Source: Lachnospiraceae bacterium
GTDB taxonomy: Bacteria > Bacillota > Clostridia > Lachnospirales > Lachnospiraceae
Direction of reading: 5' to 3'
DNA: 35,800 nt
Assembly (NCBI GenBank): GCA_030531245.1
Contig: JAUNOA010000018.1
Span: 1-35,800 of the forward strand
Shown: positions 1-3,741 of the stretch, one piece after another
Layout: every line of letters begins with the position of its first letter
How positions within the stretch are numbered: position 1 is the stretch's first letter
Notes under the pieces: generated by a model
What the model was told of the DNA's origin: nothing
The model's database searches: none
The model's input: the letters and a program-made list of their open reading frames with translations, nothing else
Position numbers and translations under genes: made by a program

Positions 1-4
1 ATAA

Positions 5-35
5 AAAACGGACCCGCGTGTGCGTAGTCCGTTTT
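5..35 (-). terminator. Rho-independent terminator of the methionine-rich small gene
   Basis: Nine-base arms (positions 5-13 and 27-35) pair perfectly. Read on the minus strand the hairpin is followed by a run of six T. It lies about 37 bases after the stop of the small ORF at 73-162. It could also end a plus-strand gene lying before the window, but the T run is better in the minus direction. Confidence 0.75.
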
Positions 36-72
36 AATTCGAAATGATTTATTATCAGATATCTATTTCATC

Positions 73-162
73 TCAACCACACACACGGATAACAGCCCGG
101 CACATCATCATGCCGTACATCATCATACCCATGTTCATGTTTGTGGTTGCAAATCTGTTCAT
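73..162 (-). CDS. Methionine-rich small protein, 29 aa, function unknown
   Basis: A 29-codon ORF with 9 methionines. Residues 9-21 read MNMGMMMYGMMMC, and the short tail is basic and hydrophobic with a second cysteine near the end. The start is supported by AGGAG six bases upstream and by a near-consensus promoter that gives a leader of only about 15 bases. A terminator follows the stop. This is a self-contained gene unit, so translation is likely although the protein is too short for most gene callers. The Met/Cys content could suggest metal (copper) binding, a membrane-associated peptide, or a leader peptide responding to methionine supply, but no long structured leader or downstream gene is present to support the last option. 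I do not recognise a family. Confidence 0.6.
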   Translation of the reverse strand: MNRFATTNMNMGMMMYGMMMCRAVIRVCG

Positions 163-182
163 AGTATCTCCTGTCGTGTCTC

Positions 183-211
183 ATTATATGCAGATTATCA
201 TCTTCCGTCAA
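183..211 (-). promoter_or_regulatory. Sigma-A type promoter of the small Met-rich gene
   Basis: On the minus strand TTGACG (206-211) and TATAAT (183-188) are separated by exactly 17 bases. This is one of the best promoter matches in the window. Transcription should begin about 15 bases before the ATG at 162. Confidence 0.8.
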
Positions 212-382
212 TTAACATATTGGACAAAATATACCAAAAGCGATCATTGTCTCTGTATAAAATTGCCAATCAACAGTAACGAAAAACCACCTCTGCAAAC
301 AGAAAGCTTTACTGTATTCTATGTCATTATTATCTATGATATAAATATAAAATCCCGAAATAAATATTTGTTTTTTCATCAA

Positions 383-574
383 ATGCTTATTCAGGACTTC
401 TATTTTTTAGCATCCGCAATCAATAATGGCGGTCACATTATCGTTCCGGAGCGAACATACTGGCATCTGCCGTGCGGAATTGAATCCATAGAAATCCTCT
501 GTGAAAGTTTGGGTCTTATTATAGAAGCTCCTGGCGTTGACAGCGGCAGCGAAGTCATATGCACCGTTCCGTAA
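383..574 (+). pseudogene. Possible remnant of a pectin-lyase-fold (GH28-like) enzyme
   Basis: An open stretch whose translation around residues 14-45 contains GGHIIVPERTYW followed by an I-x-S strand pattern. This resembles the first beta-helix turn of glycoside hydrolase family 28 and related proteins (GG-x-V-x-V-P-x-G-x-Y-x-x-x-P-I-x-x-x-S). Codon third positions look coding-like, but no ribosome site precedes the ATG at 383 and nothing of the catalytic core follows: the frame stops at 574. The simplest reading is a decayed fragment. It could also be chance. The rest of 213-592 is AT-rich with no other feature I can support. Confidence 0.25.
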
Positions 575-592
575 TATATTGAATCGGATCGT

Positions 593-868
593 TTCGATTC
601 ACAGCAGGCAGTCCGCTGAAGGGTTTGCTTCGAGAGAGTCTATGATCGCGAGAAGCAAAGCCCGGAACGACAGGACTGCCGGTCAGTTCGATTCACAACA
701 GGCAGTCCGCCGGAGGGTTTGCTTCGAGAGAGTCTGTGATCGCGAGAAGCAAAGCCCGGAATGACAGGACTGCCGGTCAGTTCGATTCACATCAGGCAGT
801 CCGCTGAAGGGTTTGCTTCGAGAGAGTCTGTGATTGCGAAAACAAAGCATATCGCTTGCGATATGCCC
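593..868. repeat. Tandem 94-bp hairpin repeat, two full copies and one altered copy
   Basis: Copies start at 593, 687 and 781, each opening with TTCGATTCAC, an exact 94-bp period. Copies 1 and 2 differ at only a handful of positions. Within a full copy, GGCAGTCC pairs with GGACTGCC and GGGTTTGCTTC pairs with GAAGCAAAGCCC (one bulged G), giving a long imperfect hairpin around a loop of about 20 bases. The third copy keeps the left arm but diverges after about 835. Its right arm is interrupted at 847-866 by a perfect 20-base palindrome with arms GCATATCGC and GCGATATGC. The repeat lies between the small Met-rich gene and the terminator of the decarboxylase operon. No coding role is apparent. 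It may be a dispersed intergenic repeat. Confidence 0.85.
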
Positions 869-911
869 GCGCCGGTCGCAGTCGCATCAGCGACATAATA
901 CCCTTCACGTA

Positions 912-940
912 AAAAGCGCAGCCCCCGCCGGGGCTGCGCT
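912..940 (-). terminator. Terminator of the decarboxylase operon
   Basis: A GC-rich 11-bp stem (AGCGCAGCCCC at 915-925 with GGGGCTGCGCT at 930-940) is followed on the minus strand by a T run. It lies 25 bases after the stop codon of the oadA-like gene. Confidence 0.9.
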
Positions 941-964
941 GATTTTATATAATGAGATAATGAA

Positions 965-2353
965 TTATACGGGATAAGAATCATTCTTAACCTTTGTCGG
1001 GTCAATACCTGTCTTCTGAGTATTTCTGTACTCAAAGAACTCTTTTGCAACTGCCGGGAACAGAGCGTATGAAAGTGTATCCTCATCCTGCTCCTTCCAC
1101 TGTTTAACTTCCTCTTCAAACTGTGTCAGCTGCGGCTTAAGCAGATCAGCCGGTCTGCAGGTGATCGGTTCCTCATCACCGAGGATCTTCTTCTGAACTT
1201 CCTTGTTCATCGGCTTAACGCACTGACCGAACTCACCCTTTGCAAGCTTCTTTGACTCCTTCGGAACCATCTTGTAACGCTCACCCATAAGAACGTTCAT
1301 AACTGCCTGTGTTCCGACGATCTGTGAAGAAGGTGTAACCAGAGGCGGCTGACCGAAGTCATCACGCACTCTCGGAATCTCCTCAAGAACTGCCTGGAGC
1401 TTGTCATCCTTGCCTGCATCATGAAGCTGCTTTACAAGATTTGAAAGCATACCGCCAGGTACCTGATACTTAAGTGTGTTGACATTAACTCCCATTACCT
1501 TCGGTGAAAGAAGTCCGCTCTTTAAGCACTCCTCTTTGTATGGCTGGAAGTAATCGCAGATATCGATAAGTTTGTTTACATCAAGACCTGTGTCGTACTG
1601 TGTTCCCTCGAATGCCTTGACCATAACCTCTGTTGAAGGCTGGCTTGTTCCGAGTGCGAAAGGTGTACATGCTGTATCAATGATATCGCATCCTGCTTCA
1701 ACTGCCTTCATAAGAACCATCGAAGCCATACCCGATGTGTAATGTGTGTGAAGCTCGATCGGAATCTTAACCGATTCTTTGAGTGCCTTTACAAGATCTG
1801 TTGTAGCATACGGAAGAAGAAGTCCTGCCATATCCTTGATACAGATCGAATCAGCTCCCATATCCTCAACTTCCTTTGCGAGCTTTGTCCAGTAATCAAG
1901 TGTATAAGCATCGCCAAGTGTGTATGAGAAAGCTATCTGAACATGTCCGCCCTCTTTCTTTGTTGCATCAACAGCTGTCTTTAAGTTTCTGACATCATTG
2001 AGGCAGTCAAAGATACGGATAATATCAATACCGTTTGCGATTGATTTCTGTACGAAATACTCAACTACATCATCTGCATAATGGTTGTAACCTAAGATGT
2101 TCTGTCCTCTGAAGAGCATCTGAAGCTTTGTGTTCTTGAAGCCGTCACGAAGAACTCTGAGTCTTCCCCACGGATCTTCCTTTAAGAATCTGAGGCATGA
2201 ATCAAATGTTGCTCCGCCCCAGCACTCTACTGCGTGGTATCCTACCTGGTCCATCTTTTCCATGATCGGAAGCATTTCCTCAGTAGGCATACGGGTTGCT
2301 ATTAAAGACTGATGAGCGTCACGAAGGACGGTCTCTGTAATTTTAACTCCCAT
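965..2353 (-). CDS. oadA: Oxaloacetate decarboxylase alpha / transcarboxylase 5S-type carboxyltransferase
   Basis: A 462-residue TIM-barrel carboxyltransferase of the pyruvate carboxylase/OadA/5S family, which moves CO2 between oxaloacetate (or pyruvate) and biotin on a separate carrier. The N-terminal metal-binding motif includes LRDAHQS (Asp12), then CWGGATFDSCLRFL, a likely carbamylated Lys near 173 in CIKDMAG, and metal-binding His near 202/204 in HTHYTSG. The biotinyl domain found at the C-terminus of some OadA proteins is absent, so it must use the carrier encoded at 3778-4092. The start is set at ATG 2353 because AAGGAG lies just before it; an in-frame start 33 bases earlier has no ribosome site. 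It is the last gene of the operon, 236 bases after oadB and preceded by a structured element. A pyruvate carboxylase subunit B label would describe the same domain. Confidence 0.92.
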   Translation of the reverse strand: MGVKITETVLRDAHQSLIATRMPTEEMLPIMEKMDQVGYHAVECWGGATFDSCLRFLKEDPWGRLRVLRDGFKNTKLQMLFRGQNILGYNHYADDVVEYFVQKSIANGIDIIRIFDCLNDVRNLKTAVDATKKEGGHVQIAFSYTLGDAYTLDYWTKLAKEVEDMGADSICIKDMAGLLLPYATTDLVKALKESVKIPIELHTHYTSGMASMVLMKAVEAGCDIIDTACTPFALGTSQPSTEVMVKAFEGTQYDTGLDVNKLIDICDYFQPYKEECLKSGLLSPKVMGVNVNTLKYQVPGGMLSNLVKQLHDAGKDDKLQAVLEEIPRVRDDFGQPPLVTPSSQIVGTQAVMNVLMGERYKMVPKESKKLAKGEFGQCVKPMNKEVQKKILGDEEPITCRPADLLKPQLTQFEEEVKQWKEQDEDTLSYALFPAVAKEFFEYRNTQKTGIDPTKVKNDSYPV

Positions 2354-2427
2354 TGTTTTTCTCCTTGTTAAAAAACTGTTTTTCACTCATCCGAAGTCAT
2401 CGCTTTCTTAGTATTCAGCAGGCTGAG

Positions 2428-2544
2428 CATAAAATCCCTTTGAGGGAGAATTGCCCAGTGCAGCGACTCAAAAAGCTCAACTGTATATTTTGTAATAAAG
2501 AGCTTTTTGACCAAGCGAAACGGTCCCGAAAAGGGATGTTTATG
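2428..2544 (-). other. Structured intercistronic element between oadB and oadA
   Basis: The 236-base gap holds nested inverted repeats. An outer stem pairs 2428-2441 with 2530-2544 (14 bp with one bulge; arm CATAAAATCCCTTT). An inner stem pairs TCAAAAAGCTC (2468-2478) with GAGCTTTTTGA (2500-2510) perfectly around a 21-base AT-rich loop. Weaker complementarity continues outwards to about 2393 and 2580. No ORF with a ribosome site and no convincing promoter is seen here. Possible roles are mRNA processing or stabilisation, partial termination to set subunit ratios, or an inserted palindromic element. Confidence 0.6.
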
Positions 2545-2589
2545 CGAAGTCTGCGGACTGGTAATAAGCGGTTTTGATTCGTTAAGGTC

Positions 2590-3741
2590 TTACTTAACCC
2601 CATATACAGCCATGAATGTTCCGGCTGCAACTGCTGTACCGATAACACCTGCAACGTTCGGTCCCATAGCATGCATGAGAAGGAAGTTTGTAGGATCGTA
2701 CTCTGAACCGACTTTCTGTGAAACACGTGCTGCCATAGGAACGGCTGAAACACCTGCCGATCCGATAAGCGGATTGATCTTGCCTCCGGTGATCTTGCAC
2801 ATAAGCTTGCCCAAAAGAACTCCGGCTGCCGTACCGAATGCGAAAGCGATAAGACCGAGTGCTACGATCTTAAGCGTATCGGCATTAAGGAATGCCTCTG
2901 CTGATGTTGTTGCTCCTACCGATGTACCAAGAAGGATAACAACGATGAACATAAGTGCATTGGATGCTGTATCTGTAAGCTGCTTAACAACTCCGCTCTC
3001 CTTGAAGAGATTACCGAGCATAAGCATACCAACAAGCGGTGCTGTTGACGGAAGGATCAGACATACAACAGTAGTAACAACGATCGGGAAGAGAATCTTC
3101 TCGAGCTTGGATACAGGACGAAGTGTACTCATCTTGATCTTGCGCTCTTCATCTGTTGTCAAAGCTCTCATAATAGGCGGCTGGATAACCGGAACCAAAG
3201 CCATGTATGAGTAAGCTGCTACTGCGATAGGTCCTAAAAGTCCTGTCTGTCCGAGCTTGTTTGCAAGGAAGATGGATGTCGGGCCGTCAGCTCCGCCGAT
3301 GATTGAGATAGCTGCTGCCGCCTGGCCGTTGAAGCCAAGAAGTATAGCTACGAAATAAGCTGCGTAGATACCGAACTGTGCTGCTGCACCGAGCAGGAAT
3401 GAGATCGGGTTTGCAATCAGCGGACTGAAATCCGTCTGTGCGCCTACGCCCATAAAGATAAGTGACGGCAATATCGTCCACTCATCAAGTTTAAAGAAAT
3501 AATGTAATAAACCTCCGACGCCGTTAGGTGTATCCTCTGCGGAATACATGATGTCCGGGTAAATGTTAACCAGAAGCATACCAAACGCAATCGGAACTAA
3601 CAGTAATGGCTCAAAGCCTTTCTTAATAGCCAGATATAAGAATACAAAGGCTACCAGAATCATGACATAGTTTCCCCAGGTCAATCCGAAAAATGCGGAC
3701 TGATGAACGAGGTTACTTAATGTCTCGCCTAAACTCATCAT
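2590..3741 (-). CDS. oadB: Na+-transporting decarboxylase beta subunit (membrane pump)
   Basis: A 383-residue, very hydrophobic protein of the OadB/MmdB/GcdB family, which decarboxylates carboxybiotin and couples this to Na+ export. Family hallmarks are visible: GGADGPTSIFLANKLG with the essential Asp of the Na+ channel, VIQPPIMRAL, and the C-terminal TNFLLMHAMGPNVAGVIG with the conserved Asn/Gly region. GGAGG lies ten bases before the ATG at 3741; a second ATG follows immediately. It sits 36 bases after the biotin-carrier gene. Membrane location is certain from composition. Which acyl substrate feeds it depends on the partner subunits. Confidence 0.95.
   Translation of the reverse strand: MMSLGETLSNLVHQSAFFGLTWGNYVMILVAFVFLYLAIKKGFEPLLLVPIAFGMLLVNIYPDIMYSAEDTPNGVGGLLHYFFKLDEWTILPSLIFMGVGAQTDFSPLIANPISFLLGAAAQFGIYAAYFVAILLGFNGQAAAAISIIGGADGPTSIFLANKLGQTGLLGPIAVAAYSYMALVPVIQPPIMRALTTDEERKIKMSTLRPVSKLEKILFPIVVTTVVCLILPSTAPLVGMLMLGNLFKESGVVKQLTDTASNALMFIVVILLGTSVGATTSAEAFLNADTLKIVALGLIAFAFGTAAGVLLGKLMCKITGGKINPLIGSAGVSAVPMAARVSQKVGSEYDPTNFLLMHAMGPNVAGVIGTAVAAGTFMAVYGVK

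Follow-up and report, generated by a model that had tools for sequence, protein, structure and literature searches.

The first 211 bases of the window, which is the whole stretch of 35,800 nucleotides (35.8 kb) analysed here, hold on the minus strand a complete miniature unit consisting of promoter, Shine-Dalgarno sequence, open reading frame (ORF), and terminator. The promoter TTGACG-17-TATAAT, seen in the sequence and in a promoter scan, has its -35 element at 211-206 and its -10 element at 188-183. It is an 11/12 match and the sole match of that quality at a spacing of 16-18 in the window. Weaker promoter-like matches within positions 1-3000 are about as frequent as expected from shuffles (5 found vs 5.1 expected). 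The Shine-Dalgarno sequence AGGAG (172-168) is placed five bases 5' of the ATG at 162, and the ORF that follows (162-73) has 29 codons and encodes the peptide MNRFATTNMNMGMMMYGMMMCRAVIRVCG with nine Met and two Cys. Eight of the Met codons belong to a putatively regulatory cluster comprising codons 9-20 (138-103). Behind the ORF folding reveals an intrinsic terminator hairpin at 35-5 with a U run reaching to position 3, which was absent from the output of a simple terminator scan, probably because its stem contains a bulge. None of ten shuffles of the stretch behind the stop codon was equally good. Thus, all parts given in the preliminary description, namely the promoter with its spacing, the position of AGGAG, the Met- and Cys-containing ORF, and the terminator, could be confirmed. 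The 178-nt leader has a folding z of -3.9 and the unit recurs both within this genome and among relatives, and therefore it exceeds what chance would produce. A plus-strand ORF spanning the same place (44-574) is only a mechanical listing. Further into the window, several tandem near-copies of a unit of about 110-120 bases (AGGCAGTCCGC...GGACTGCCGGTCAG) were seen by eye at 580-905, and positions 842-909 match part of an interspersed repeat, being one of 37 places in the genome matched by a 239-base query taken from an end of contig C49.

A second copy of the leader, called the twin in the following, is located in the same genome at G000:C10:81-264 and shares 83% DNA identity with the window copy. 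The ORF and the terminator are conserved between the two copies while the spacers differ. The twin peptide, MNRFATTTMNMDMMMCGMMMCRAVIRVCG, is 90% identical to that of the window, the 31 bases of the terminator are identical, and the twin promoter reads TTGATT-17-TATAAT. About 60 bp past the twin terminator a metN-like gene begins, which is followed by a metI-like and then by a metQ/NlpA-like gene. The best NCBIfam models for these genes are MetN (with NIL domain), MetI, and MetQ, but the scores are below the respective cut-offs (340.7 vs 499.7, 211.3 vs 212, and 205.4 vs 374), whereas the Pfam cut-offs for ABC_tran, NIL, BPD_transp_1, and Lipoprotein_9 are passed. Therefore, these genes are only predicted, from their sequences, to encode a methionine importer of the MetNIQ type. 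Elsewhere on the twin contig there is a PyrR binding site (L015:5318-5427; RF00515, 54.4 bits vs a cut-off of 54). At the window copy the contig ends past the terminator, so that the downstream gene lies off the contig. The genome contains a second metN on contig C49 (L046, G000:C49:93000-96453), which is 86% identical to the metN behind the twin and would be the natural partner for the window copy. Only 238 upstream bases remain to the contig end, which is formed by a repeat, and the leader is absent from these bases. By end overlap and a search of the own genome, this repeat is common to the ends of contigs C10, C101, and C59 but not to the contig of the window, C68. This metN is therefore only a possible partner of the window copy.

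When the single peptide was run against 98 genomes, all hits beyond the own genome were weak (best E 0.255). Two incomplete genomes of the same genus (73% and 80%) contained neither a match to the peptide nor a metN at E <= 1e-60. Homologues of metN are found at E <= 1e-70 in 100 of 200 genomes of the family, and among 50 metN upstream regions, some of which were shortened by contig ends, ten contain this type of leader, six contain divergent Met/Cys-rich ORFs that were assigned by eye, and in 34 none was recognised. A profile built from eleven leader peptides (window, twin, and nine from metN loci) was run on 397 genomes of the family ignoring the genomic context. It gave a match at E <= 1 in 92 genomes and a match at E <= 0.0014 in 20, with E-values as low as 3.9e-13. 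All 20 strong matches are on the same strand as a metN homologue and 119-324 bp upstream of it, counted from the end of the match to the first aligned metN base, with a terminator in between. Because nine of the eleven profile rows had been taken from metN loci, only the 11 further genomes that did not contribute a row are independent in this respect, and three of these 11 share a genus with a row. None of the next ten matches, which were also fetched (L089-L098, E 0.0128 to 0.0708), has a metN nearby. The eleven-row profile missed the two copies of the own genome, and a 21-row profile including them recovered both. That frame, Met pattern, ribosome-binding site, and terminator are all conserved in the relatives supports well that the unit is real and complete.

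The 20 strong matches, the window copy, and the twin make up the set of 22 leaders used in the following. The Shine-Dalgarno-like site and the reading frame are conserved across the leaders, and the 21-row alignment has the consensus M-x5-MQMNMxMMxGMxMCRM, in which the Met cluster follows the pattern M-N-M-x-M-M-x-G-M-x-M-C and the Cys behind the cluster is invariant. The peptides are between 28 and 44 residues long without a fixed end, their tails varying in both length and sequence. Within the 22 ORFs, internal ATGs occur 193 times in frame and only 8 and 7 times in the other two frames. The 759 internal residues include 193 Met and 76 Cys, corresponding to a codon ratio of about 2.5 to 1. 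Together, these features suggest that the leader ORF is translated. A small hairpin within the ORF (window positions 115-98, CGGCAU...GUGCCG) appears in the folds of the window copy and the twin, and by eye its letters reappear in several relatives; it could be a pause signal for the polymerase.

A profile search at the level of the class, covering 391 genomes with few members of the family, gave matches in three genomes, none of them new and credible: the own genome, the already known G361, and G796, which was dropped as a chance match because it sits within a frame of 698 codons. Of 80 named loci, 27 (L099-L125) match MetN over nearly the full length at an identity of at least 51%, and the others match mostly the ATPase part. 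A filter for Met-rich ORFs was passed by five of the 80. Four were kept (L099 from Lachnospiraceae UBA10550, L103, L111 from Faecalibacterium UBA1762, and L114), and L174 was dropped for lacking a Shine-Dalgarno sequence. Each of the ten divergent leaders (these four and the six assigned by eye) has a terminator-like hairpin past the ORF, as judged without a shuffle control. The metN leaders at L037, L052, L056, L057, and L061 are more distant, Met/Cys-rich, and each have a terminator-like hairpin. Possibly they represent a second, more Cys-dependent branch. The pattern ATGATGATGTGYTGY, describing the class of leaders with Met-Met-Met-Cys-Cys, occurs at 31 places in 31 of 250 genomes. Ten of these places were fetched, of which three are leaders (L182, L183, and L191, which are the places L061, L056, and L057), and the other seven have no leader anatomy and look like chance matches.

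In Firmicutes, methionine genes are commonly controlled by T-boxes and SAM riboswitches, which directly sense tRNA and SAM, respectively, without a translated ORF. At the gathering score, the window is without any Rfam match, hence contains neither a T-box (RF00230) nor a SAM riboswitch, and there is also no match over the twin leader or over the leaders of the nine loci of this type that were scanned. T-boxes were identified just upstream of metN in two of 29 loci of the family (L020 and L034 among L017-L045) and in four of 20 named loci (L102, L104, L113, and L115 among L099-L118). These six loci do not have a leader of this type, and the leader-bearing loci scanned do not have a T-box. Accordingly, the T-box in the one group of loci takes the same site upstream of metN as the Met-rich leader in the other.

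All 22 leaders have an intrinsic terminator past the ORF, and none of 220 shuffles of the stretches behind the stop codons equals the real one. In the window, the last codons of the ORF (region 2, 87-75, CGTGTGTGTGGTT) are complementary both to the start of the ORF (region 1, 149-136) and to the 5' arm and loop of the terminator (region 3, 29-17, GACTACGCACACG), the latter being paired to region 4 in the terminator itself. In folds of the ribosome-free RNA, region 2 is the partner of region 1. The pairing of regions 2 and 3, found by a duplex search, would act as an antiterminator. In the window this duplex amounts to -17.8 kcal/mol, which is reached by one of 300 shuffles, and one of 300 is also as good as the duplex of the twin. 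Across the family the picture is less uniform. The duplex of regions 2 and 3 beats dinucleotide shuffles of the upstream stretch (<= 15/300) in only five of the 22 leaders (L069, L073, L076, window, and twin). In 14 of the 20 relatives the best partner of the terminator arm is an element corresponding to region 2, often TTGTATGGATTGTGATT, which matches an arm such as TCGCAAGTCTGTGCA and whose start ranges, relative to the end of the stop codon, from 16 bases before to 11 bases after it. The strongest partner of the arm is within the Met region in the other six, which are L074, L078, L082, L084, L086, and L088. A restricted search, read by eye, revealed the element corresponding to region 2, although sometimes a weak one, in all of these except L088, for which a convincing antiterminator was not found. 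When the partners were swapped between the 22 leaders, the own combinations of regions 2 and 3 had a mean of -15.09 kcal/mol vs -12.77 for swapped ones, a difference reached in none of 10000 permutations with effects of relatedness and composition still contained in these pairing statistics. Leaving out L071, the twin, L075, and L077 (18 leaders) again gave 0 of 10000, and for regions 1 and 2 of the 22 leaders 2 of 10000 permutations were as good. For L075 an upstream-extended start was used in the terminator, duplex, and partner-swap tests. The letters of regions 1, 2, and 3 in the window and the twin are unlike those of the relatives, but the pairings are kept.

The consequences of these alternative pairings were computed for RNA without a ribosome, with a ribosome waiting at a Met codon, and with a ribosome at the stop codon. 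The ribosome was taken to cover 16 bases past the first base of the P-site codon, which is an assumption from general knowledge. The probability of the terminator in these three states is 0.94, 0.08 (average), and 0.94 for the window copy, and 0.94, 0.26, and 0.94 for the twin. If only the Met codons 11-20 are considered, the values with a waiting ribosome decrease to 0.03 and 0.21, respectively. None of 200 shuffles of the window leader has the three-state pattern and none is at or below 0.2. For the twin, one of 200 shuffles is at or below 0.2 and two are at or below its own value, one of these with the full three-state pattern. At equilibrium, such switching is found in only four of the 22 leaders, the other two being L073 (0.29) and L074 (0.04). 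The remaining 18 keep on average a terminator probability of at least 0.80 with a Met codon waiting, and the lowest values at single Met codons are 0.40 for L069 and 0.71 for L087. In these 18 the computed terminator is stronger than the antiterminator, and because of their high terminator probability at equilibrium we infer that the antiterminator would need to be kinetically trapped during transcription.

Based on these data we propose, with a probability of about 0.83, that the leader in the window is a ribosome-mediated transcription attenuator that senses the supply of methionine and is predicted to control an importer of the MetNIQ type. Transcription would start from the promoter at 211-183 and the ORF of 29 codons would be translated at once. 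If charged Met-tRNA is ample, the ribosome would reach the stop codon and cover region 2 (87-75), so that the terminator at 35-5 could form and RNA polymerase would stop. If charged Met-tRNA is scarce, the ribosome would wait in the Met cluster (138-103) and mask region 1, leaving region 2 free. According to the folding of the window copy and the twin, free region 2 may then pair with region 3, by which the terminator would be blocked and the downstream genes would be transcribed. In the ribosome-free RNA, folding predicts regions 1 and 2 to pair and the terminator to form. Readthrough is thus predicted to rise upon shortage of charged Met-tRNA, and the finished leader peptide probably has no job of its own. 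The features known from attenuators are present to different extents. The ORF has its own ribosome-binding site and the crowded Met codons, and the twin precedes genes predicted to fit the sensed amino acid; a terminator follows the ORF in 22 of 22 leaders, the structural gene of the window copy being off the contig. The protecting pairing of regions 1 and 2, restoring termination without translation, appears in the folds of both the window copy and the twin. The mutually exclusive antiterminator is found in these two copies, but only partly across the family (5/22 beat shuffles and 4/22 switch).

Other explanations were considered. The preliminary description had suggested that the peptide might be a ligand of copper or another soft metal, or be active at the membrane. 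Nine Met and two Cys among 29 residues as well as the invariant Cys are what such a small protein might contain, but a peptide whose coding ends double as RNA elements in alternative pairings, either mutual or involving the terminator, is better understood as part of a switch. In addition, the twin and all 20 strong relatives precede metN-like genes with a terminator in between, T-boxes take the same site in six other loci, and neither the length nor the end of the peptide is fixed. The identification of neighbours covered metN, metI, and metQ, so that metal-handling genes may lie nearby. Conservation independent of the regulatory RNA and of one operon was not found. The suggestion of a metal-binding or membrane peptide is therefore left unsupported, and we consider it very improbable. 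Even less credible is a constitutive small RNA or a plain upstream terminator with an ORF inside by chance. The terminator is indeed stable without a ribosome, and on average still so in 18 of the 22 leaders with a Met codon waiting, but chance would account neither for the bias of 193:8:7 in favour of in-frame ATGs nor for the conservation of ribosome-binding site and peptide pattern at profile E-values down to 3.9e-13.

A variation of the attenuator, which would sense Met together with Cys, or chiefly Cys, the importer serving sulfur amino acids in general, is unlikely but more probable than these two. Cys is frequent in the 22 leaders (76 vs 193 Met), the Met cluster is closed by a Cys codon, and runs of Met-Met-Met-Cys-Cys appear in the divergent metN leaders. 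The computed effect of a waiting ribosome is ambiguous in this respect, as a ribosome at Cys21 keeps the terminator off in the window (0.1) but results in 0.8 in the twin. Furthermore, Cys28 is situated within region 2 so that its codon is constrained by pairing, and Met codons exceed Cys codons by about 2.5 to 1. Thus, we prefer sensing of methionine.

Leader peptides with Met codons have been proposed before in other phyla. In Streptomyces lividans, metL stands immediately in front of metNIQ. The leader peptide of 29 residues that it encodes has Met codons, and metL was proposed to be an attenuator (PMC8079986). According to that report, its transcription is leaderless, a typical Rho-independent terminator is missing, and the printed peptide contains three Met, whereas the leader described here has a Shine-Dalgarno sequence, nine Met, and a clear terminator, and its pairings follow a 1-2-3-4 scheme. 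The printed metL peptide ends with ...CMCRRMCAF, which by eye recalls MCRMFxC of the peptides here, both containing Met-Cys-Arg. This resemblance, as judged by eye, could be either convergence or homology. In Campylobacter jejuni, a Met leader peptide, MetL, was proposed upstream of metBA (PMC3847290), and CJsORF19 (MMYQMR) is found upstream of Cj0772c, the gene of a substrate-binding protein for D-methionine transport (PMC11955535). Both are short Met-containing ORFs proposed to couple the supply of methionine to downstream methionine genes, and the MetL RNA ends shortly past the stop codon (PMC3847290). However, they belong to another phylum, MetL has 20 residues with three Met codons and CJsORF19 only six residues, the genes downstream of MetL are different from those of the metN leaders, and alternative pairings are not described in the accessible parts of these reports (PMC3847290, PMC11955535). 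A 2005 survey of Actinobacteria found no methionine leader peptides (PMC1262725). Transcription attenuation by leader peptides itself is described in Gram-positive hosts for the leucine attenuator of the ilv-leu operon of S. aureus (PMC5794164) and for histidine attenuators in Bacillota (PMC2965389, PMC9413887), for which swapping with T-boxes has been reported (PMC2965389). These concern other amino acids and other operons. Our literature search, which most subscription journals were outside of, found no Met leader peptide for Bacillota (Firmicutes). It is likely, then, that the leader in the window extends the already known leader-peptide attenuation to methionine in Bacillota, after the earlier proposals for Met leader peptides in Streptomyces and Campylobacter.

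In general, the leaders could constitute a so far undescribed, family-wide class of sulfur-amino-acid attenuators, present in a Lachnospiraceae-like family, so placed by its best named metN relative, and some other Clostridia. In this class a nascent peptide with Met plus Cys would sense elongator Met-tRNA, both coding ends would serve as arms of the RNA switch, and the unit, which is duplicated here, would be interchangeable with T-boxes at metN. This wider proposal is about as probable as not. For the locus itself, an unexplained Met-rich mini-protein would become a readable regulatory switch with a searchable family of 22 examples, and leader-peptide attenuation would be found where relatives use T-boxes. 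Methionine is an odd signal for such a switch because it has a single codon, which is also that of the initiator. How a shortage of elongator Met-tRNA might be discriminated from one of initiator Met-tRNA would thereby become a testable question.
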